Assembly: GCA_947471115.1 (NCBI GenBank)
Contig: CANIXX010000002.1
Location: forward strand, 1-46,211
Direction: 5' to 3'
From: Opitutaceae bacterium
Lineage (GTDB): Bacteria; Verrucomicrobiota; Verrucomicrobiia; Opitutales; Opitutaceae
Length of the DNA: 46,211 bases
Of this stretch, positions 19,570-31,137 are shown in pieces. A model generated the notes under the pieces. The model was not told the DNA's origin. It made no database searches and saw only the letters and a program-made list of their open reading frames with translations. The stretch's first letter is position 1. Each line of letters starts with the position of its first letter. Both the position numbers and the translations under genes were made by a program.

Positions 19570-19831
19570 GTTTTTGATCACTCAATCCACCCGAAACGTC
19601 GTGGACCCTCCAAGTTTCTCGGCTACAGAGCGTAACTTAGAACATTGCCTGATTTTCAGTTTCAACGATTCGGTTTCTTTTCGATGGAGTTCGGCAACAA
19701 AACGTGTCGAAGCAATGGGGTGAGGTTGTATGGACTTTTTTTGCACCTCAAAAAGAAGTAAGCGACCCCGCGTTCAATATGGCGTGAGCTTTTGCTTGTC
19801 AGGCTTTCCCAGCGCCGCCTATTTCTCACCG

Positions 19832-21478
19832 ATGAAATACATCTTCGTGACGGGCGGAGTGGTCTCGTCGTTGGGCAAAGGCCTCACGGCTGCCGCACTC
19901 GGTGCACTTTTGGAGCTGCGCGGTCTAACCGTGCGCATCCAAAAGTTCGATCCCTACCTTAACGTCGATCCAGGCACTATGAGCCCGTTCCAGCACGGCG
20001 AAGTTTATGTGCTGGAGGACGGTGCCGAGACCGATCTCGACCTCGGCCACTATGAGCGCTTCACCAGCGGAAAACTCTCCAAGCTAAACTCCCTGAGCTC
20101 CGGCCAGGTCTATGAGAACGTCATTTCCAAAGAGCGCCGCGGCGTTTACTTGGGCAAGACCGTGCAGGTGATCCCGCACGTCACCAACGAGATTAAAGAG
20201 CGCATCTACGCCGGCGGTAAGGATGTTGACATCCTCATCACCGAAATAGGCGGCACCACCGGCGACATTGAGGGGCTCCCGTTTCTCGAAGCGATGCGCC
20301 AGTTTGCCCTCGAAGTCGGGCCTGACGACTGCATTTTTATTCACGTTACCCTCGTGCCTTACCTTAAGGCGGCCGGAGAACTTAAGACTAAGCCCACCCA
20401 GCAGTCCGTCGCCAAGCTGCGTGAAATCGGTATCCAGCCCGACATCCTCGTCTGCCGCTGCGACCACCCACTTGAGGCCGGCCTGCGCGACAAAATTTCA
20501 ATGTTCTGCAACGTCCCGGTCAAGGCCGTGATCGAGTGTGGCGACGTGGATTCGATTTACGAACTTCCACTCGCCCTACAAAAAGAGCGCATGGATGACC
20601 TAGTGGTTGACCTCTTCGGGCTCAAGAATCCAGCCCCCGAGAAGAACATCTGGACCGAGATCGTGCGCCGCATCAAAACCCCCGCCCACGAGGTGAAGAT
20701 CGGCGTGGTCGGCAAATACATCGAGCTCCAGGACGCCTACAAATCCGTTTACGAGTCCATCACCCACGCAGGCATCGCCAACAACACCCGCGTTAACATC
20801 GTGCGCATTGACGCCGAGGATCTGGAAAAGAAAAACGGGCTTAATATTCTCAAGGGGCTCGACGGCATTCTCGTCCCGGGCGGCTTCGGCGACCGTGGCA
20901 CGGAGGGCAAAATCGCGGCGGCTAAATACGCCCGCGAAAACAAGATTCCCTACTACGGTCTCTGCCTCGGCCTGCAAATCGCAGTCATCGAGTACTGCCG
21001 CAATGTCCTCAAGTTGAAGGGCGCCAACTCCACCGAGTTCGACGCCAACGCGCCGCATCCGGTGATCAACATCATGGAGGAGCAGAAGAACGTCATCGAT
21101 AAGGGTGCGACGATGCGCTTGGGCAGTTACGAGTGTGCTCTCACCCCCGGTTCCCACGCAGCTAAGGCCTACAAAGCCACTCACGTGCGCGAGCGCCACC
21201 GTCACCGCTTCGAGGTTAACAACGCCTACGTCGGCCAACTCCAACGTGGCGGCATGATCATCAGCGGCATCAACCCTCGCCGCAATCTGGTCGAGATCAT
21301 CGAAATCAAGGATCACCCTTGGTTCGTCGCGGTGCAGTTCCACCCCGAGTTCCAGTCCAAGCCCAACAAGGCGCACCCGCTCTTCGCCGCCTTCATCGGC
21401 GCTGCCCTCAAAATGAAACCCGCCACCAAGGCCAAGCCCGCCAAAGCCGCACCAAAGGCAAAGAAAAAGAAGAAGTAG
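19832..21478 (+). CDS. pyrG: CTP synthase
   Basis: ATG at 19832: [73 protein letters not shown]; glutaminase [21 protein letters not shown]-terminal Lys/Ala-rich tail. Confidence 0.98.
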
Positions 21479-21599: not shown

Positions 21600-22397
21600 A
21601 TGCCCCTTTTCGATCCTAAGCGCCTTCTTGTTCTCGCCGGTCCTTGCTCACTCGAAAATGAGAAGGTCGTACGCTCGGTGGCCGAAAAACTCGTCGAGCT
21701 GCGCGCCCGTTACCCCGAGCTCAACTTGGTATTCAAGGGATCCTTTGATAAAGCCAACCGCACCTCGATTACCGGCGGTCGTGGCACCGGGCTAGAAGAG
21801 GGGCTCGCCCTGCACGCCTTGGTCAAAAAAGATTACGGGCTGCCCTGCGTGACCGACGTCCATGACGCCGGTCAATGCGCCCAGGTCGCCGAGGTTTGCG
21901 ACGTCCTACAGATCCCCGCCTACCTTTGCCGCCAGACCGATCTGCTCCTCGCCGCCGCCGCCACCGGCAAGGTGGTCAACGTGAAGAAGGGCCAGTTTCT
22001 CTCTCCCAACGACATGGTGCACGTGGTCGGTAAATTGAAGCACGGCGGGGCCGCAGAAATCTGGCAATGCGAGCGCGGCGCCACCTTCGGTTACAACAAT
22101 CTGGTGGTGGACATGCGCACATTCCCGATCATGGCGCGCAACGGGTATCCAACGATTCTCGACGCCACCCACAGCGTTCAACTTCCCGGTGCCGCCGGCG
22201 GCAAAAGCGGTGGTCAACGCGAGTTCGTGCCCACGCTCGCCTTCGCCGCCCTCGCGGCCGGAGCTGACGGCCTTTTTCTCGAAACGCACCCCGATCCAGA
22301 CAACGCCCTGTCGGACGGCCCCAACATGGTGCCGCTCCCCGAACTCGAAGCGCTACTCGCAAAGTGCCTCGCCTTCTGGAAACTCGCCCGCGCTTAA
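21600..22397 (+). CDS. kdsA: 3-deoxy-8-phosphooctulonate synthase (KDO-8-P synthase)
   Basis: [92 protein letters not shown]. Confidence 0.97.
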
Positions 22398-22468: not shown

Positions 22469-24064
22469 ATGGACACCTTCCTCATCGACGTGCCGATTCC
22501 CTCCATGGGCGCGACCGTCAGCGAACTCACTGTTATCGACATCAAGGTCGTCGCCGGCGCGCGTATTTCCAAAGGCGAAAAAATCGCCGAGTTGGAGAGC
22601 GATAAATCGGTTTTTGAGTTTGAGGCGCCCTGCGACGGCGTGATCGAGATGGTGCAAGCCCGCGCGGGGGATATCCTGCCCAGCGGCTCTCCGTTCCTGC
22701 GTATCAGCACGACGGACATTTCGCTTAAAAATCTTCAGGTTAAAGCCGGAGCCGCCACGCCTGTTGTCGCAGCTATTTCTCCCGTGAAGTCCGCTCCTGT
22801 TACGGCAGTCGCGCCCGTTGTGGCGCCAGCAGTTGTTGCCGCGCCCGTGCACACGGCCGCTACTCCGGCAACTGGCATCCAATGGACGCCTCGCGCTGCC
22901 AAGCTCGCCAAAGAGGCAGGTCTCGATCCCGCCAGTATCGTAGGAATCGAAGCCACCGGCCCCGGCGGGCGCGTCTCAGGCGATGACATCAACCGTTATC
23001 TCGCAAACCGACCTTCAGCGTCGACTTCGGGGGTCTCGACGCTGAGCTCCAAAAGCGGTACTTCGACTTCGGCCTCTACCGAGACCGTTTGCATCGCCGG
23101 CATCGGGTATGCAGTCCCCAAGAACATCCGTGCCACCAGCGATATTTTGAAGGCGTTCCCTGGGCGCACTGAGGCGGAGATGCTCAAGCTTACGGGCATC
23201 AAAGAGCGCCGTTACGCCGACGCCGACGCTTCGGCGACCAGTCTCGCCGCCATCGCCGTCAACCACGCGTTGGCGCAAGCCGGCATGACTGCGGCGCAGA
23301 TCGACGGCATCATTCTAGCCACCATCATTCCCGACCAACCCGTGCCCTCGATGGCAAGTGCATTGGCCAAGCACCTCGGCTGCACCAAGGCGCTCGCCTT
23401 TGACCTCAACGCCGCCTGCTCCGGCTGGCTCTACGCGTTAGAAGTCGGCCGCGCCTTTATCCGCGGTGGCACCGCCAAAAACGTCATTGTAGTCACCGCC
23501 GAGCTGCTCTCCCGCATCACCAATCCCAACGACCACGAAACCGCCTTCCTGTTTGGAGATGGAGCAGGTGCTGCCATCCTTACCGATGCGCCCGGTGGCC
23601 ACCGACTACATCGCATGGCGCTTTCCGGCGATGCGGCGGCATTCGAAGCCATTCAGCGTCCCGGTGGCGGGGCGCGCCAACTCATGCCCAACGTCGACGG
23701 CAGTGACCGCGGCGATTTTTTCCTACAGATGGATGGAGGCGCTGTCTTCAAGAGCGCGGTGATCGCTTTCGCCAACGAGATCGAGAACGCCATGACGCGT
23801 CACGGCCTCACGCCGGCGGATATTTCCTGGATCGTGCCGCACCAGGCCAACGAGCGCATTCTGCGTGCCGTGGGCAAGCGCGTAGGCATTCCCTTCGAAA
23901 AGTTCGTCGTGACCATTGCCAAGTACGGCAACACCTCGGGCGCCTCCGTTTCGATGGCGCTGGGCTGGGCGGCTGAAGAGGGGATTTTCAAGCCGGACGA
24001 CAAAATCATCTTCTGCTCGGTCGGCGCCGGCCTGACCTTCGCTGGCGGCCTGCTGGTCTGGTAA
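22469..24064 (+). CDS. Fusion protein: lipoyl domain + peripheral-subunit (E3)-binding domain + beta-ketoacyl-ACP synthase III (FabH-like)
   Basis: Lipoyl domain MDTFLIDVPIPSMGATVSEL...AELESDKSVFEFEAPCDGVIEM (DK lipoylation site); Ala/Pro/Val linker; PSBD TPRAAKLAKEAGLDPASIVGIEATGPGGRVSGDDINRYL; FabH with AFDLNAACSGWLYAL, FLFGDGAGAAIL, WIVPHQANERIL and KYGNTSGASVSMAL (Cys-His-Asn triad). Confidence 0.93.
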   Translation: MDTFLIDVPIPSMGATVSELTVIDIKVVAGARISKGEKIAELESDKSVFEFEAPCDGVIEMVQARAGDILPSGSPFLRISTTDISLKNLQVKAGAATPVVAAISPVKSAPVTAVAPVVAPAVVAAPVHTAATPATGIQWTPRAAKLAKEAGLDPASIVGIEATGPGGRVSGDDINRYLANRPSASTSGVSTLSSKSGTSTSASTETVCIAGIGYAVPKNIRATSDILKAFPGRTEAEMLKLTGIKERRYADADASATSLAAIAVNHALAQAGMTAAQIDGIILATIIPDQPVPSMASALAKHLGCTKALAFDLNAACSGWLYALEVGRAFIRGGTAKNVIVVTAELLSRITNPNDHETAFLFGDGAGAAILTDAPGGHRLHRMALSGDAAAFEAIQRPGGGARQLMPNVDGSDRGDFFLQMDGGAVFKSAVIAFANEIENAMTRHGLTPADISWIVPHQANERILRAVGKRVGIPFEKFVVTIAKYGNTSGASVSMALGWAAEEGIFKPDDKIIFCSVGAGLTFAGGLLVW

Positions 24065-24232
24065 GGAAAAGGCGTGTGGGTGGCGCCGGTTTCGGGAATT
24101 GCACTTGGATGCGGTGAGAGCCGTCGCAGAAGGACCACTGGGGTCTTTGCCCGATAAGCCCACTTCGTGATTGTCTTCCAGACTAGCTTGGTCGAAATCT
24201 GCACACGCTTTAATCCTGCAACCTCCTTATTG

Positions 24233-24916
24233 ATGGCCAACTCGTTCCCCTCCTCGGGCGGCAACCGCCCCGGTTACTTTCAGCGTCGTAACAACGACCC
24301 TTTTGCACACATCCGCCGTAACTCGCGGATCAAAGAGCCAGAAATCCGCGTGATCAGCCCCGAAGGCAAACAGCTCGGCATTATGCAGACTGAGCGTGCC
24401 TTGGCCTTGGCTCAGCAGTTCAATCTCGACCTCGTCGAAATGGCTGCGACCGCCAAGCCGCCCGTCTGCCGCATCATGGATTTCGGCAAATACATTTACG
24501 AAGAGCAAAAGAAGGCGAGCCACGCTAAGACAACTGCCACCAAGCTCAAAGAAATCGAATTCACGCCGCGTATCGCAGGCGGCGATTTCCTCACCAAGAT
24601 CCGTCACGCCGAGGAGTTCCTCGATCACGGCAACAAGGTGAAGCTCCGACTGAAGTTCCGCGGCCGCGAAATGGCGCACACCGAGATTGGTTTTGGCGTC
24701 ATGATGAAGGCACTCGCCGAACTCGAAGGCATGGGCCACCCCGATTCCACCCCGCGCCTGATGGGCAAGCAGATCAACGTCATGTTGACCCCCCTACCAA
24801 CTAACAAGCGCAAGCGGAAATACACCCTCGAGAACGACGAGCAAGCGATCGACGACACCGGCTCCGACCACGGACACGAAGAGTCCAACGACGACGAGGT
24901 TCCGGCAAAGGCCTGA
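24233..24916 (+). CDS. infC: Translation initiation factor IF-3
   Basis: IKEPEIRVISPEGKQLGIMQTERALALAQQFNLDLVEMAATAKPPVCRIMDFGKYIYEEQKK; KLRLKFRGREMAHTEIG. Acidic C-terminal tail. The start codon is uncertain (ATG at 24233 preferred). Confidence 0.95.
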   Translation: MANSFPSSGGNRPGYFQRRNNDPFAHIRRNSRIKEPEIRVISPEGKQLGIMQTERALALAQQFNLDLVEMAATAKPPVCRIMDFGKYIYEEQKKASHAKTTATKLKEIEFTPRIAGGDFLTKIRHAEEFLDHGNKVKLRLKFRGREMAHTEIGFGVMMKALAELEGMGHPDSTPRLMGKQINVMLTPLPTNKRKRKYTLENDEQAIDDTGSDHGHEESNDDEVPAKA

Positions 24917-26091: not shown

Positions 26092-26616
26092 TCAACGCGC
26101 TATCTCAACCGAAGTCACGCGCCAAGAGGCGGAAAGCTGCGAGGGATTGGCCCGGTTACTGGCTAAGGAAAACTGCTCAAGCCCTAGGTAAGGAGCGCGT
26201 TGAGCCAACGATTGATAAAAGGCTATCAGCGCAGCCATGTCGGAATTACGGGACGAAAACTGCACCGAGTGCACCGCGAATTGACTGGAGCGCACGGTGC
26301 GGCTGTCGGATACGTCGTAGTTAGAAAGCCCTGCCGAACGGGCCAGCGTATTCAATTCCCCCTGCAAGCGAACGCTGTCGAAACTCCTCGACGGGTCGAG
26401 ATGCTCGACGGCCAGCGTCGCCTCCTTCTCGATACGCTCACGTTGCAACAACCAGCGCTGCTGAACATCCAAGTCCGTTGATGTCACCTGAATCGCGCGC
26501 ACCTGAGCAGCCACGCGATCACCCACGCCGGACAGCCAAATAGCCGCACCGAGCAGGGTAAAAACCAGCAGCAGTATTTTTTCGCGCAGGAGCCGACTAA
26601 GGAAATAAGCTTTCAT
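26092..26616 (-). CDS. gspM: GspM-like type II secretion protein
   Basis: Small bitopic protein with one N-terminal TM, downstream of gspL. Assigned mainly by position and size. Confidence 0.6.
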   Translation of the reverse strand: MKAYFLSRLLREKILLLVFTLLGAAIWLSGVGDRVAAQVRAIQVTSTDLDVQQRWLLQRERIEKEATLAVEHLDPSRSFDSVRLQGELNTLARSAGLSNYDVSDSRTVRSSQFAVHSVQFSSRNSDMAALIAFYQSLAQRAPYLGLEQFSLASNRANPSQLSASWRVTSVEIAR

Positions 26617-27797
26617 GATGTGGCCTCCGGAACCGTTGGCACCGGTACGGGATCCGGTGCGGTTTCTTTAAATGCCTCAGGTCGAAAGATCACCACCAGC
26701 TTGAAGGTCGAAACTCCGTCGCGACTGCGCGGGTCAACCACCTCGGCCTTTTGGCAACCGGAGAGCTTATTAAGCGCGGAGCGAAACACGTCGATATCCC
26801 CCGAAGCGTTCGTCTGCGCTTCAACCTCCAGCTTATAAAGCCCGCTGCTCACCGCGCGTATGAATTGGATCGTCTCGGGGCGAACATCATTAACCAGCGC
26901 CAACATCTCGAAGGGACGCAGCCGTTTATTGGAAAGCTCTTCAATGCGCGTCGCCAGCGACTGCGAGGTCATGATTGCATCGACAATCGGCTTTTGCCTA
27001 GCCTCCAGCGCCAAGCGGCGGCTTTGCCAGTACGAGGAGCCCACCAGCCCCAGTTCAAGCAATGCGGATAACGCGATGGCCGCCGCGCAACCGAGGAACG
27101 TGCGCCACAAGATAACATCCCGGCCGTGGGCACGGCGCCTGGACTCCAGTTCGCCCTTGTCGCGTACATCGAGTGCAGCGACCTCATTCGAACCAAAACG
27201 CGACTCCAGCGCACCTGCGCGGAAAACGAACTGATCTTGTGCCGAAGCCAGATCGAACACCGGTTCGGAATCCAGTTTTACCACATGTAATTTCTCGGGA
27301 AAGGAACTCAACAGCGTCCCAAGTGCTGCGTCACGGTCGGCTTCGGTCGGCTCACCGGGCAGCGACTCGACCCGCACCTGTGAGGGCATCCCGCTCGCAT
27401 CGGCAAAATAAAGTCCCGTCACACTGCTCGCACCAGCCACCACCACTGCAGTAGCGGGCAACGGGGCGGAAACACCATTAAGAACCGTAACGAAGTTCGG
27501 GAAAACCACTTGGGCATCTGCCCAACTTACCACCTCATCAGCGGTAAAACGCTTTCGGTATGCGGCATAGATCAACACGCTATTCGCCCCCAATTTCCAG
27601 TAATGGCCGTAGTAAAGTTGCGTTATCGGAAAGGGCGCAAGTGCCTCAATGGCCAACTCTGCTTGAGCCGCCACGTCAGCGGCGCTTACCCCTTGGGCCA
27701 CGGGCACTGAGCGGACAAAAAACAACGCGTCGGCCACCCGCACAATGTGTCGAGGCGGTGCGGCGGGTAAAAAGCGTTTAAACGAGGTAAGGCTCAT
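26613..27797 (-). CDS. gspL: GspL/PilM-N-like type II secretion protein
   Basis: Cytoplasmic N-terminal region, central TM (TFLGCAAAIALSALLELGLVGSSYW), periplasmic ferredoxin-like C-terminus (FIRAVSSGLYKLEVEAQTNASGDIDVFRSALNKL); position between gspK and gspM. Confidence 0.65.
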   Translation of the reverse strand: MSLTSFKRFLPAAPPRHIVRVADALFFVRSVPVAQGVSAADVAAQAELAIEALAPFPITQLYYGHYWKLGANSVLIYAAYRKRFTADEVVSWADAQVVFPNFVTVLNGVSAPLPATAVVVAGASSVTGLYFADASGMPSQVRVESLPGEPTEADRDAALGTLLSSFPEKLHVVKLDSEPVFDLASAQDQFVFRAGALESRFGSNEVAALDVRDKGELESRRRAHGRDVILWRTFLGCAAAIALSALLELGLVGSSYWQSRRLALEARQKPIVDAIMTSQSLATRIEELSNKRLRPFEMLALVNDVRPETIQFIRAVSSGLYKLEVEAQTNASGDIDVFRSALNKLSGCQKAEVVDPRSRDGVSTFKLVVIFRPEAFKETAPDPVPVPTVPEATS

Positions 27798-28966
27798 GCA
27801 GTCGGTTCAGCGGTAACAGCAGGGGGAGGAACAGCACTATCGTTTTCACGGATTTCGAGAAACGTAAACGGGTATTTGAGATCGGTAGGCTGGCCGGAGG
27901 TTTTATCCGCCGTGGTTGCTCCTTTAGAATCAGCCTTCTGTGGGGTCTTTTTAGCGCTGGCTGCGGCAGGACTCGCTGCGGTGGATGCGCTGCTAGATGA
28001 GCTGGCAGGGACGACCTTGGCGCCACCCTCCGGTGACACCACCGCCATCAAGCGAAAAGAAGACAAGCCTTGCCGAACCGTCACGGTAATACGCAGAGCA
28101 TTCACCTTGTACCCGTAGCCTAGTTTCTCCAGTTGCCCGCCCGCGACTGCGGCGACGCTGCGACCACTTTTGAAAAACCCTGGGCCCTGGCTTTGGTACA
28201 AGCCTGCTCCGGACAGGAATTCGGACACCCGTTGCTGCTGCTGCGCGTCGATCGTTTCCTGGGCCAGTAAGGGCTCGAGTCGATTGCCGTTTAGGTTGGG
28301 GGAATCGAAATCATAAAGCGAAAACGTGTCGGTGAAACGTTGATACAGCGCCGTGGGTAAACCCGTGGCCTCGTCAAAAAACACCTGGCGCACGCCCTCG
28401 ATTGCGGCCAATTCGGTAAACGAGCGCAGCGACCGTCCCGGAGGCGCGAAGGGCAGCGCCGTATTTTCGTAATCCTGCAAGGTCGGTGCGCCAATCGCGC
28501 TAGCCGTGTGATCCTTTTGAATCCAACCCAACAGTGAATCCGTGAGGCGTTCGGCGTCGATTTGGGGCACCTGCCAGGACTTGAACAATGCGATGAGCAT
28601 CTCCGCCTTCACGGATGGAAGTGGTAACTTGGCGCTCTCGTCCTCCAGCGAAACCTCCACCGTGCGGCCCTCGGCAGGCGTGTAACCGGCAAAGCCGAGC
28701 GGATCGCCCCAGCCTTCCGCCGGACCGTGAAGCCCGTCGCCGACCACACGGAAGTCCTCCAGCACGGCAAGGGTCGTCTCAAGAGCTGAGTAGGCTTCCA
28801 TCCGCAGGCGAGCTGCATCGGCCTCGCGGATATCCACCAGCAGGTCGGTACCCGCTTTTTCGATGAACAACAGCAGGGCCGAGGTGGCGAATACCAGCGT
28901 GACGAGCACGATGAGCAACACGGACCCACGTCGGCGAAGGAGTGGAAATCGAGAGGCGCGAAGCAT
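27794..28966 (-). CDS. gspK: GspK-like minor pseudopilin
   Basis: MLRASRFPLLRRRGSVLLIVLVTLVFATSALLLFIEKAGTD (GspK-type N-terminus), LTDSLLGWIQKD, and the GspK-like AAIEGV segment. ATG at 28966 overlaps the gspJ end. Confidence 0.82.
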   Translation of the reverse strand: MLRASRFPLLRRRGSVLLIVLVTLVFATSALLLFIEKAGTDLLVDIREADAARLRMEAYSALETTLAVLEDFRVVGDGLHGPAEGWGDPLGFAGYTPAEGRTVEVSLEDESAKLPLPSVKAEMLIALFKSWQVPQIDAERLTDSLLGWIQKDHTASAIGAPTLQDYENTALPFAPPGRSLRSFTELAAIEGVRQVFFDEATGLPTALYQRFTDTFSLYDFDSPNLNGNRLEPLLAQETIDAQQQQRVSEFLSGAGLYQSQGPGFFKSGRSVAAVAGGQLEKLGYGYKVNALRITVTVRQGLSSFRLMAVVSPEGGAKVVPASSSSSASTAASPAAASAKKTPQKADSKGATTADKTSGQPTDLKYPFTFLEIRENDSAVPPPAVTAEPTA

Positions 28967-28967
28967 G

Positions 28968-29609
28968 TTAAAAGGCCGGGATTCCTTGGGTTCCTGCGGG
29001 CAAGACAATCAACACCTCCTGCGAACGAGTGTGATAAGTGAACTTAAGGCGCAGCCGCTGCGGGGCGTCGTACCCCCCTTGGGAGTTACGTCGAGGAGTG
29101 GTTTCGTTTTTCCAATTCTTAAAATCCGCGTCGTAATAATCGTACCCTAGGCCCGTGACCAAAGGCGAAACCACGGTCTCACGTGGGGGCTGTTCATCAA
29201 AACTCTTTTCAACCCGTGAATGCCACAGAAACAAAAGGCCTGCGCCCTCGCGCACCGATAGCGAACACACCACTTCAGGCAAAGGTTGTCCCGGCCAGAC
29301 GAATAGGCGGCTACCCTCGAAGAGTTCAAATGTAAGCAACGTCTCAGTCATGCCCGCCTGGGTGCGAATCTCCGTCATGGTAAACGGTGTGGAATCGGCG
29401 GAGGCGGCTGGAGGTCGAGCCGCGGCGCGCAGTTCATGCTGCAAAAATCGAGTGACCGCCCGAATATGCTGATCGAAGAGCCGTAGGTCGGTGTTACGCC
29501 CCCATAACTCGCCCATCGAAAAGATAAACGTGTTGAGTCCCACCATGAGCAAGCCAGTCAAGGCGAGCGCAAGTAATGTCTCCAACAGAGTGAATCCACG
29601 GCGCTTCAT
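28968..29609 (-). CDS. gspJ: GspJ-like minor pseudopilin
   Basis: MKRRGFTLLETLLALALTGLLMVGLNTFIF prepilin N-terminus. Confidence 0.82.
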   Translation of the reverse strand: MKRRGFTLLETLLALALTGLLMVGLNTFIFSMGELWGRNTDLRLFDQHIRAVTRFLQHELRAAARPPAASADSTPFTMTEIRTQAGMTETLLTFELFEGSRLFVWPGQPLPEVVCSLSVREGAGLLFLWHSRVEKSFDEQPPRETVVSPLVTGLGYDYYDADFKNWKNETTPRRNSQGGYDAPQRLRLKFTYHTRSQEVLIVLPAGTQGIPAF

Positions 29610-30067
29610 TTGTTCACACTCTCCTGCAGCTTGAGGATTCGATCGCGAGAGGCGGCGCGCAGGGTAGCTCGGTCGGTCGCCACCGACCAGGTCGGCCGTA
29701 GCAGCCGGAAAATCTCTCGGATTTTTTGGGCGTTGGCTGTGTCATGGCCGGCGATTTCACAGTCGAAAGTGACAGCGAAGAGATCGGCCTGTGAGGTCGG
29801 TTCGATGGTCGCCGTCCAGTGTACCGCGCGGCCGTCAGCTGCCGCAAATTCACCGCCACGACGTGCCAATTCAACATCGGCCTGAGCGAGCAACTGCGCG
29901 CGCGCAAACTGAACCTCTGGATCGCTCACCGTGGCCCTGCGAGCAACCTGGTAACCGTTAAGCACATTGACGTAGGCGGTGCCCAAGACCACCGCCGCCA
30001 TGGCGAAAAGCGCCAGGGCCACCAGTACCTCCAGAAGTGTAAAAGCTGAGAGACGCGTGCGGTTCAT
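29606..30067 (-). CDS. gspI: GspI-like minor pseudopilin
   Basis: MNRTRLSAFTLLEVLVALALFAMAAVVLGTAYVNVL prepilin N-terminus; ATGA overlaps on both sides. Confidence 0.82.
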   Translation of the reverse strand: MNRTRLSAFTLLEVLVALALFAMAAVVLGTAYVNVLNGYQVARRATVSDPEVQFARAQLLAQADVELARRGGEFAAADGRAVHWTATIEPTSQADLFAVTFDCEIAGHDTANAQKIREIFRLLRPTWSVATDRATLRAASRDRILKLQESVNK

Positions 30068-30585
30068 CGGTCAGCTAGGGGCGTAAGCATCGGGGCGCAC
30101 GTCCACGGATCGATTTCAAGCACCCGAGTTTGGGTGCTGCTCTTCAGTTGCACCCGAAATGGCGAACACGTCCCATCACCATAAAATGTAACAAAGGGCT
30201 GAGTATGGGTTTCAACGAGCTCACCGGCGATGAGGATGGCCGAATACGTCGACGGCGATTTCGGTGGTAGAAATTCAATCTCCGCGAGTTGAGTGGTCGC
30301 GAAGGGCATGCGGGTTTCTGCGGCCAAAGAGGTGAGGATAAATTCACGCGACTTTTTATCGAGGCTCAGGCGTACCGGCTGATTGTTCAGCAGGGCCTGC
30401 TTACGCGCGGCCGCAGCAGCCAACCAAAACAACTCGTCAGGGGTTTTAGGGCGATCACCGAGCAGCCGAGAAGTGCCCACCACTAACACTCCAGTGAGCA
30501 AGGCGATCAGGGCGATCGTTACCAACACTTCGAGCAGCGTGAAGCCCGTCCGGCCAGCGGCTATTCGCGGAATGGATACAGACAT
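30064..30585 (-). CDS. gspH: GspH-like minor pseudopilin
   Basis: GRTGFTLLEVLVTIALIALLTGVLVVG prepilin N-terminus. Confidence 0.8.
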   Translation of the reverse strand: MSVSIPRIAAGRTGFTLLEVLVTIALIALLTGVLVVGTSRLLGDRPKTPDELFWLAAAAARKQALLNNQPVRLSLDKKSREFILTSLAAETRMPFATTQLAEIEFLPPKSPSTYSAILIAGELVETHTQPFVTFYGDGTCSPFRVQLKSSTQTRVLEIDPWTCAPMLTPLADR

Positions 30586-30619
30586 AGAATCGCGCGCCGG
30601 TTAGCCAGAACGGAGCGGA

Positions 30620-31066
30620 TTACCAATTACCGATATCGTCAGCGGTGCCCTCGGTTCTGTCCGGCCCCTTGGAGTACAGATCGTAGCTGTCCTTGTTTTT
30701 CAAACCGGGGAAGCGGTAAACGTACGGCTCCTGAAATGGATCGAGCGGAAGCTTGCCACCGGGACTCTCAATGTACGGTCCTTTCCACGAGTCGGCGCGC
30801 GCTGCAGGTGCTGTGACGAGAGCCTGTAAGCCCTCAGCGGTTGAAGGATAACCACCCGTGTCAATACGGTAGGCGGTCAGCGGAGTCTTGAGACTGGAGT
30901 TAACAAACAGACGTGCGATGTCCTCCGTTTTGGTGCCAAAAATGCCAGTGATCTTGGTGACAGCGAGGCCGACGAGCAGGCCGATGATCGCCAAGACCAC
31001 GAGAATTTCGAGCAGGGTAAACGCACGATGGGAAGCGCGCAGGGATTTATGGAGAGATGAATGCAT
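30620..31066 (-). CDS. gspG: Type II secretion major pseudopilin GspG
   Basis: ATG at 31066: MHSSLHKSLRASHRAFTLLEILVVLAIIGLLVGLAV; GGYPSTAEGLQALVTAP; WKGPYIESPGGKLPLDPFQEPYVYRFPG...YDLYSKGPDRTEGTADDIGNW. Confidence 0.95.
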   Translation of the reverse strand: MHSSLHKSLRASHRAFTLLEILVVLAIIGLLVGLAVTKITGIFGTKTEDIARLFVNSSLKTPLTAYRIDTGGYPSTAEGLQALVTAPAARADSWKGPYIESPGGKLPLDPFQEPYVYRFPGLKNKDSYDLYSKGPDRTEGTADDIGNW

Positions 31067-31137
31067 AGGAAAAACGTTAAGACTAAGACTGCTGAGCCAA
31101 GTTGCGAAAGAGCATCGCAAAGGCGACGCGAAAGAAG

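Follow-up and report, generated by a model that had tools for sequence, protein, structure and literature searches.

A lipoyl-armed ketosynthase III from Opitutaceae as the probable E2 of an atypical 2-oxoacid dehydrogenase assembly

A 46,211-nucleotide stretch of DNA from an Opitutaceae bacterium (GenBank assembly GCA_947471115.1, contig CANIXX010000002.1), referred to here as the window, encodes a 531-aa protein in which a lipoyl domain, a peripheral-subunit-binding domain (PSBD) and a ketoacyl-ACP synthase III (FabH) are joined in one open reading frame. Judging from sequence comparisons, we consider that this fusion serves as the E2 in an atypical 2-oxoacid dehydrogenase assembly, with a ketosynthase III in place of the CoA acyltransferase, and give this reading a probability of roughly 0.8. 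In the textbook picture, acyl-CoA is both what a 2-oxoacid dehydrogenase complex releases and what ketosynthase III uses to prime fatty acid synthesis. If our reading is true, both enzymes are merged here: fatty acid synthesis would begin independently of CoA, lipoic acid would gain a new role, and branched primers would stay separate from the acetyl-CoA pool. A search of the open-access literature found no paper joining a lipoyl domain to FabH. The combination is a variant of E2 and of ketosynthase III, and the resulting 2-oxoacid dehydrogenase complex may belong to a new class.

Results and Discussion

Architecture of the fusion protein

The gene occupies positions 22469-24064 of the forward strand, as do all elements of the protein described below, with an ATG at 22469 and the stop codon at 24062-24064, and its extent is supported by the open reading frame, Pfam, NCBIfam, homologues and their alignment. 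The lipoyl domain (Biotin_lipoyl, PF00364) covers aa 7-79 (22487-22705) with a Pfam score of 47.3 bits against a cut-off of 22.1 and an AlphaFold2 confidence mostly between 80 and 95. It carries the predicted lipoylation site Lys46 (22604-22606) within an ESDKS motif, and this lysine, already read as intact from the sequence, proved to be invariant in an alignment of 24 fusions and is present in all 20 Fibrobacterota loci read. Attachment of biotin instead of a lipoyl group was rejected, as the three biotin-type carriers of the same genome display AMKI, SMKM or AMKM motifs. A flexible Ala/Pro/Val-rich linker of variable length (aa 80-139, 22706-22885; pLDDT below 50 at aa 95-134) leads to the PSBD, a putative E3/E1 binding domain (E3_binding, PF02817; aa 140-174, 22886-22990; 31.6 bits, cut-off 23.7) with AlphaFold2 helices at 141-149 and 171-180, and a second, Ser/Thr-rich linker (aa 175-205, 22991-23083; pLDDT below 50 at aa 184-203) connects it to the FabH domain.

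This last domain (aa 206-531, 23084-24061) is spanned by the beta-ketoacyl-ACP synthase 3 model NF006829 at 307.8 bits, above its NCBIfam cut-off, with the Pfam matches ACP_syn_III (311-384) and ACP_syn_III_C (443-531) both above their curated cut-offs, and its best Foldseek matches are FabH structures (TM-score on target 0.93). Pfam found no PF00198 CoA acyltransferase domain in the protein. The catalytic residues Cys317 (23417-23419; C112 in E. coli), His458 (23840-23842; H244) and Asn488 (23930-23932; N274) are invariant in the 24-sequence alignment, so that the sequence-only reading, which had named these three residues and the three domains in a single open reading frame, is borne out by the alignment as well as by Pfam and NCBIfam. 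In the AlphaFold2 model (mean pLDDT 80.4) the lipoyl, PSBD and FabH domains are confidently folded and the linkers between them disordered; such linkers would fit a swinging arm, as expected.

Distribution and ancestry

The domain order was followed across genomes, as the sequence-only reading had suggested, and was encountered in Opitutales, in Fibrobacterota and in one Sumerlaeota metagenome-assembled genome (MAG). Our panel for the order Opitutales comprised 56 genomes, namely the window's own and relatives from its genus, family and order. The fusion is present at full length in 12 of the 12 other genomes of the genus, with 81-93% identity across residues 1-531, and likewise at full length in most other Opitutaceae genera of the panel. 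A Rariglobus MAG (locus L018) carries it too. Fused or as neighbouring genes, the lipoyl-FabH system occurs in nearly all Opitutaceae sampled, and one genome from a different family of Opitutales (G042) has the fusion too. Among 390 Verrucomicrobiota genomes, matches were obtained in 21, all of them Opitutaceae. A frameshift or chimeric join was dismissed on the basis of the uninterrupted order in all 12 of these genus genomes and in further Opitutaceae, single-contig assemblies among them, and an assembly artefact on the basis of the conservation of the fusion in many independent assemblies.

Outside Opitutales, a pattern scan of bacterial genomes retrieved fusions from Fibrobacterota and one Sumerlaeia MAG with 36-39% overall identity, and 26 of 121 Fibrobacterota genomes encode a fusion of this kind, with scores of 468 bits or more against 302 for the next best match. 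The PSBD is replaced by a short linker in all six non-Opitutales forms aligned, and a Pfam scan of three Fibrobacterota/Sumerlaeota forms gave no PSBD match.

The lipoyl-linked FabHs from the three phyla form one clade (support 93/99), in a tree in which long branches meet and outgroups are limited, and with this caveat an independent fusion in each phylum is not favoured. The partner E1 proteins introduced below likewise group as a single clade in a tree of their own (support 100/99, small outgroup). One clade of Opitutaceae (G015, G018, G029, G030, G033 and relatives) encodes lipoyl-PSBD and FabH as separate genes that overlap or lie tens of bases apart. Because these split forms nest inside the fused Opitutaceae forms, split genes were rejected as the ancestral state, and a secondary origin by later fission is the preferred, tree-based explanation.

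The partner E1 component

The window had been noted to hold neither an E1 nor an E3 gene, with partners expected elsewhere in the genome. This holds: E1 matches lie on contigs C1, C61 and C298 and E3 matches above cut-off on C61 and C108. The relevant partner was located on C298, where an E1-alpha-beta fusion is cut off by the contig end. The assignment originates from the six fusions outside Opitutales (five Fibrobacterota, one Sumerlaeia), in which the upstream gene abuts the fusion gene in six of six cases; four of these genes were scanned and display E1_dh, Transket_pyr and Transketolase_C, and the remaining pair match this E1 as well. Across the Fibrobacterota loci the fused E1-alpha-beta is found directly upstream in 19 of 20, the twentieth starting at a contig edge, and the gene on C298 is its homologue. 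A thiamine-diphosphate motif was recognised in the E1 by regular expression.

The fusion and E1 genes are apart from each other in Opitutales, where their link is one of co-inheritance. Close homologues of the C298 E1 (at least 471 bits; next group 271) are present in 35 of the 56 panel genomes, and the same 35 encode the lipoyl protein or its FabH; the remaining 21 have neither, without exception. As the panel genomes are kin, these are not 56 independent events, and the informative cases are G042, which belongs to another family and has both, and G021 and G022, which belong to the same family and have neither. In one genome (G027) the E1 and a lipoyl-PSBD mini-protein (L125:5300-5770, reverse strand) are retained and the linked FabH is lost.

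Carrier accounting points in the same direction. Besides the fusion on C2, the lipoyl-type carriers of the window's genome are a PDH-type E2 on C1 and a SucB-type E2 on C61. Because its two PF00198 acyltransferases lie on C1 and C61 only, the third E1, on C298, appears to have no evident lipoyl acceptor other than the fusion; at 93.5% completeness and 318 contigs a missing gene is possible for this genome alone. Two is also the number of PF00198 matches in most fusion-bearing Opitutaceae, and no PF00198 E2 was found in G042 (96% complete) or in the Fibrobacter MAG G060, both of which encode the E1-fusion pair. Homologues of E3 and LipA were found in 12 of 12 genomes tested.

An altered CoA-binding site

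In E. coli-type FabH, CoA is contacted by Thr28, Trp32, Arg36 and Arg151 (PMC4606726). In the fusion, the first three are replaced by Arg233, Glu237 and Leu241 in a degenerate segment at 23165-23191, and Arg151, the adenine-stacking residue, by His356 (23534-23536). Thr28, Trp32 and Arg36 are all replaced in 38 of 38 lipoyl-linked FabHs, and Arg151 in 32 of 38, which are all 32 Opitutales forms. Ordinary FabHs (n=36, mostly from the same or related genomes, after exclusion of one distant FabH-like protein and four remote paralogues) retain Thr28, Arg36 and Arg151 in 36 of 36 cases each and Trp32 in 34, with Phe in the other two. Cys112, His244, Asn274, Asn247 and Arg249 (E. coli numbering) are kept in lipoyl-linked and ordinary FabHs alike, and the Cys/His/Asn triad is complete in all 38 lipoyl-linked FabHs and in all 20 Fibrobacterota loci. 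The 20 loci, five of which are already counted among the 38, also show the loss of Trp32 and Arg36, with Thr at position 28 in one.

In place of Trp32, every one of the 32 Opitutales forms has Glu, and the six others have Tyr. As the change is thus milder in the Fibrobacterota and Sumerlaeota forms, with a still aromatic residue at 32 and Arg or Lys at 151, exclusion of CoA is best supported for Opitutales, and in the other two phyla the residue pattern points to a clear loss at some CoA-site positions only.

Proposed mechanism and acyl substrate

In the mechanism that we propose, the substrate is a 2-oxoacid, most likely one with valine, leucine or isoleucine as its origin. The dedicated fused E1-alpha-beta would remove CO2 from it and transfer the remaining acyl group to the lipoyl arm by reductive acylation, giving acyl-dihydrolipoyl-Lys46. 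From the arm, the acyl group would pass to the FabH cysteine, Cys317. Malonyl-ACP would be decarboxylated and condensed there via His458 and Asn488 to a 3-oxoacyl-ACP, with which the synthesis of iso/anteiso fatty acids begins. E3 (dihydrolipoamide dehydrogenase), presumably docked via the PSBD, would reoxidise the arm with NAD+, and the acyl carrier role of CoA would be bypassed. A relay from E1 over the lipoyl arm to the ketosynthase without acyl-CoA had been put forward in the sequence-only reading; the abutment and co-occurrence of the E1, the genomes lacking an acyltransferase E2 and the loss of the CoA residues in lipoyl-linked FabHs only now lend it strong sequence-level support. It is likewise probable that we are dealing with a further kind of 2-oxoacid dehydrogenase, with a ketosynthase as E2 and an acyl-dihydrolipoyl primer donor, which unites keto-acid oxidation and chain initiation in one machine and bypasses acyl-CoA. 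The role of such a complex would lie in branched-chain lipid synthesis, in Opitutaceae as well as in many Fibrobacterota and at least one lineage of Sumerlaeota.

Cultured relatives are rich in iso and anteiso fatty acids: iso-C15:0 accounts for 33-49% in two Lacunisphaera species (PMC5303756), Rariglobus, Oleiharenicola, Nibricoccus and Horticoccus have iso/anteiso forms among their major fatty acids (PMC12193912), and ai15:0 is the dominant fatty acid of Chitinispirillum, a member of Fibrobacterota (PMC4814513). Branched-chain keto acids are therefore favoured over pyruvate as substrate, on circumstantial grounds. Branched fatty acids do not require the fusion protein, because Opitutia that do not belong to the fusion-bearing set have them too, for instance Puniceicoccus (PMC12193912). 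Our reading accounts for iso/anteiso-rich bacteria that possibly manage without an evident branched-chain E2.

The identity of the acyl group is also where the strongest competing explanation enters, namely that the relay runs as proposed with acetyl from pyruvate and yields acetoacetyl-ACP for straight-chain synthesis. The solved structures nearest to E1-beta are bacterial pyruvate dehydrogenases, followed by 2-oxoisovalerate dehydrogenases; these top matches speak for acetyl, although the nearest solved structures do not part pyruvate from branched-chain E1s, and straight-chain C16:0 is found in these bacteria as well. However, an E1-alpha/E1-beta/E2 set is encoded separately on C1 of the window's genome, every fusion genome examined additionally encodes an ordinary FabH, and Chitinispirillum obtains acetyl-CoA via ferredoxin oxidoreductase and pyruvate-formate lyase (PMC4814513). 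Most fusion-bearing Opitutaceae, moreover, are without an apparent dedicated branched-chain E2, yet their relatives are rich in iso/anteiso fatty acids, and most Opitutales fusions have Val at position 87, where the E. coli residue is Phe. We thus regard an acetyl-fed relay as improbable, while still the most serious competitor.

Considerably less probable is that acyl-ACP or another carrier feeds the FabH domain, with the lipoyl and PSBD segments acting only as a tether to a dehydrogenase complex or in regulation. Loss of the CoA site would fit any non-CoA donor, and an E. coli FabH structure with acyl-ACP (9ka6) is among the Foldseek matches, but this explanation leaves the invariant Lys46, the strict co-inheritance and abutment with an E1-alpha-beta that needs a lipoyl acceptor, and the genomes with E1 but without an acyltransferase E2 unaccounted for. 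To a similarly small, if anything slightly smaller, degree we credit a FabH domain that acts as a transacylase from the lipoyl group to ACP or CoA without condensation. Acyl-CoA:ACP transacylase is a known side activity of ketosynthase III, and such a role would also account for the E2-like position of the domain; the His/Asn pair for malonyl decarboxylation is nevertheless invariant, and the family score is that of a beta-ketoacyl-ACP synthase III. That a FabH of the ordinary type, working with acyl-CoA, was fortuitously joined to a lipoyl segment that is now vestigial is very improbable, since the known split versions, one with FabH lost, are outweighed by conservation across three phyla, the invariant lysine, the altered CoA site, the partner E1, and split copies whose halves stay adjacent and whose FabHs likewise lack the CoA residues.

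Comparison with known systems

Read as a ketosynthase-bearing E2, the fusion shares with the E2 subunits of PDH, OGDH and BCKDH an N-terminal lipoyl domain, a flexible linker and a PSBD, together with the pairing with an alpha/beta-type E1 and an E3 in the genome. Unlike them, it has a ketosynthase III instead of PF00198, and the Fibrobacterota/Sumerlaeota forms also lack the PSBD. With FabH it has in common the fold, the Cys-His-Asn triad, the ACP-side Arg249 and, by prediction, the reaction with malonyl-ACP, whereas the replacement of Thr28, Trp32 and Arg36 (in Opitutales also of Arg151), the lipoyl arm in cis or next door and the dedicated E1 set it apart. Lipoyl-bound intermediates with a non-CoA acceptor are familiar from the naphthyridinomycin and quinocarcin starter pathways, in which a lipoyl-bound C2 unit is passed to ACP. 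To our knowledge, these systems have no ketosynthase III fusion and belong to specialised rather than membrane lipid metabolism. In the classical branched-chain route, described for Chlamydia trachomatis, the Bkd complex provides acyl-CoA to FabH (PMC6167442). As proposed here, amino-acid-derived 2-oxoacids serve as iso/anteiso primers in that route too, but it consists of two enzymes linked by free acyl-CoA, in contrast to a single lipoyl-armed ketosynthase without CoA acyltransferase. For enzymology and engineering, the fusion would offer a ready-made lipoyl-fed ketosynthase.

Gene neighbourhoods and further observations

In the window, the fusion gene comes after pyrG (CTP synthase, 19730-21478, forward strand; Pfam, NCBIfam), which is also found in other Opitutales loci, and directly after a gene of the DAHP-synthase family (21600-22397, forward strand; PF00793), separated by a 71-bp gap and named kdsA-type by eye; such a kdsA-type gene precedes the fusion in most Opitutales loci read. 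The E1 gene stands ahead of kdsC-type and lptB genes in the two Opitutales genomes checked, directly upstream of kdsC-type, lptC/lptA-like and lptB genes at L196:4928-9543 and L127:13488-17958. To judge from these gene assignments, both halves of the putative system sit in LPS-related or envelope-lipid gene neighbourhoods.

Downstream of the Fibrobacterota fusions, radC, a large ORF and an acyl/phenylacetate-CoA ligase-like gene were observed. The ligase-like gene at L034:9151-10470 (forward strand), scanned together with the radC of this locus, has the flexirubin ligase FlxY as its best model, below cut-off, and similar ORFs lie at L035:12486-13790, L038:8726-10006 and L045:11449-12753.

Several Opitutales (L182, L185, L186, L188) encode E1-alpha/E1-beta/E2 three-in-one polypeptides of 1036-1071 aa, and their bearers include family members without the lipoyl-FabH system; G027 also encodes a polypeptide of about 1045 aa (L182:1772-4906, forward strand) that holds E1-alpha, E1-beta, lipoyl and acyltransferase parts together. 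Elsewhere in the window, a type II secretion/pseudopilin run (GspG, GspH, GspI, prepilin-type, GspK-like; several below curated cut-offs) occupies 26613-31120 on the reverse strand. The infC (IF-3) ORF at 24167-24916 (forward strand) is listed with a GTG start about 50 codons before the IF3 domain, and its true start probably lies further in.
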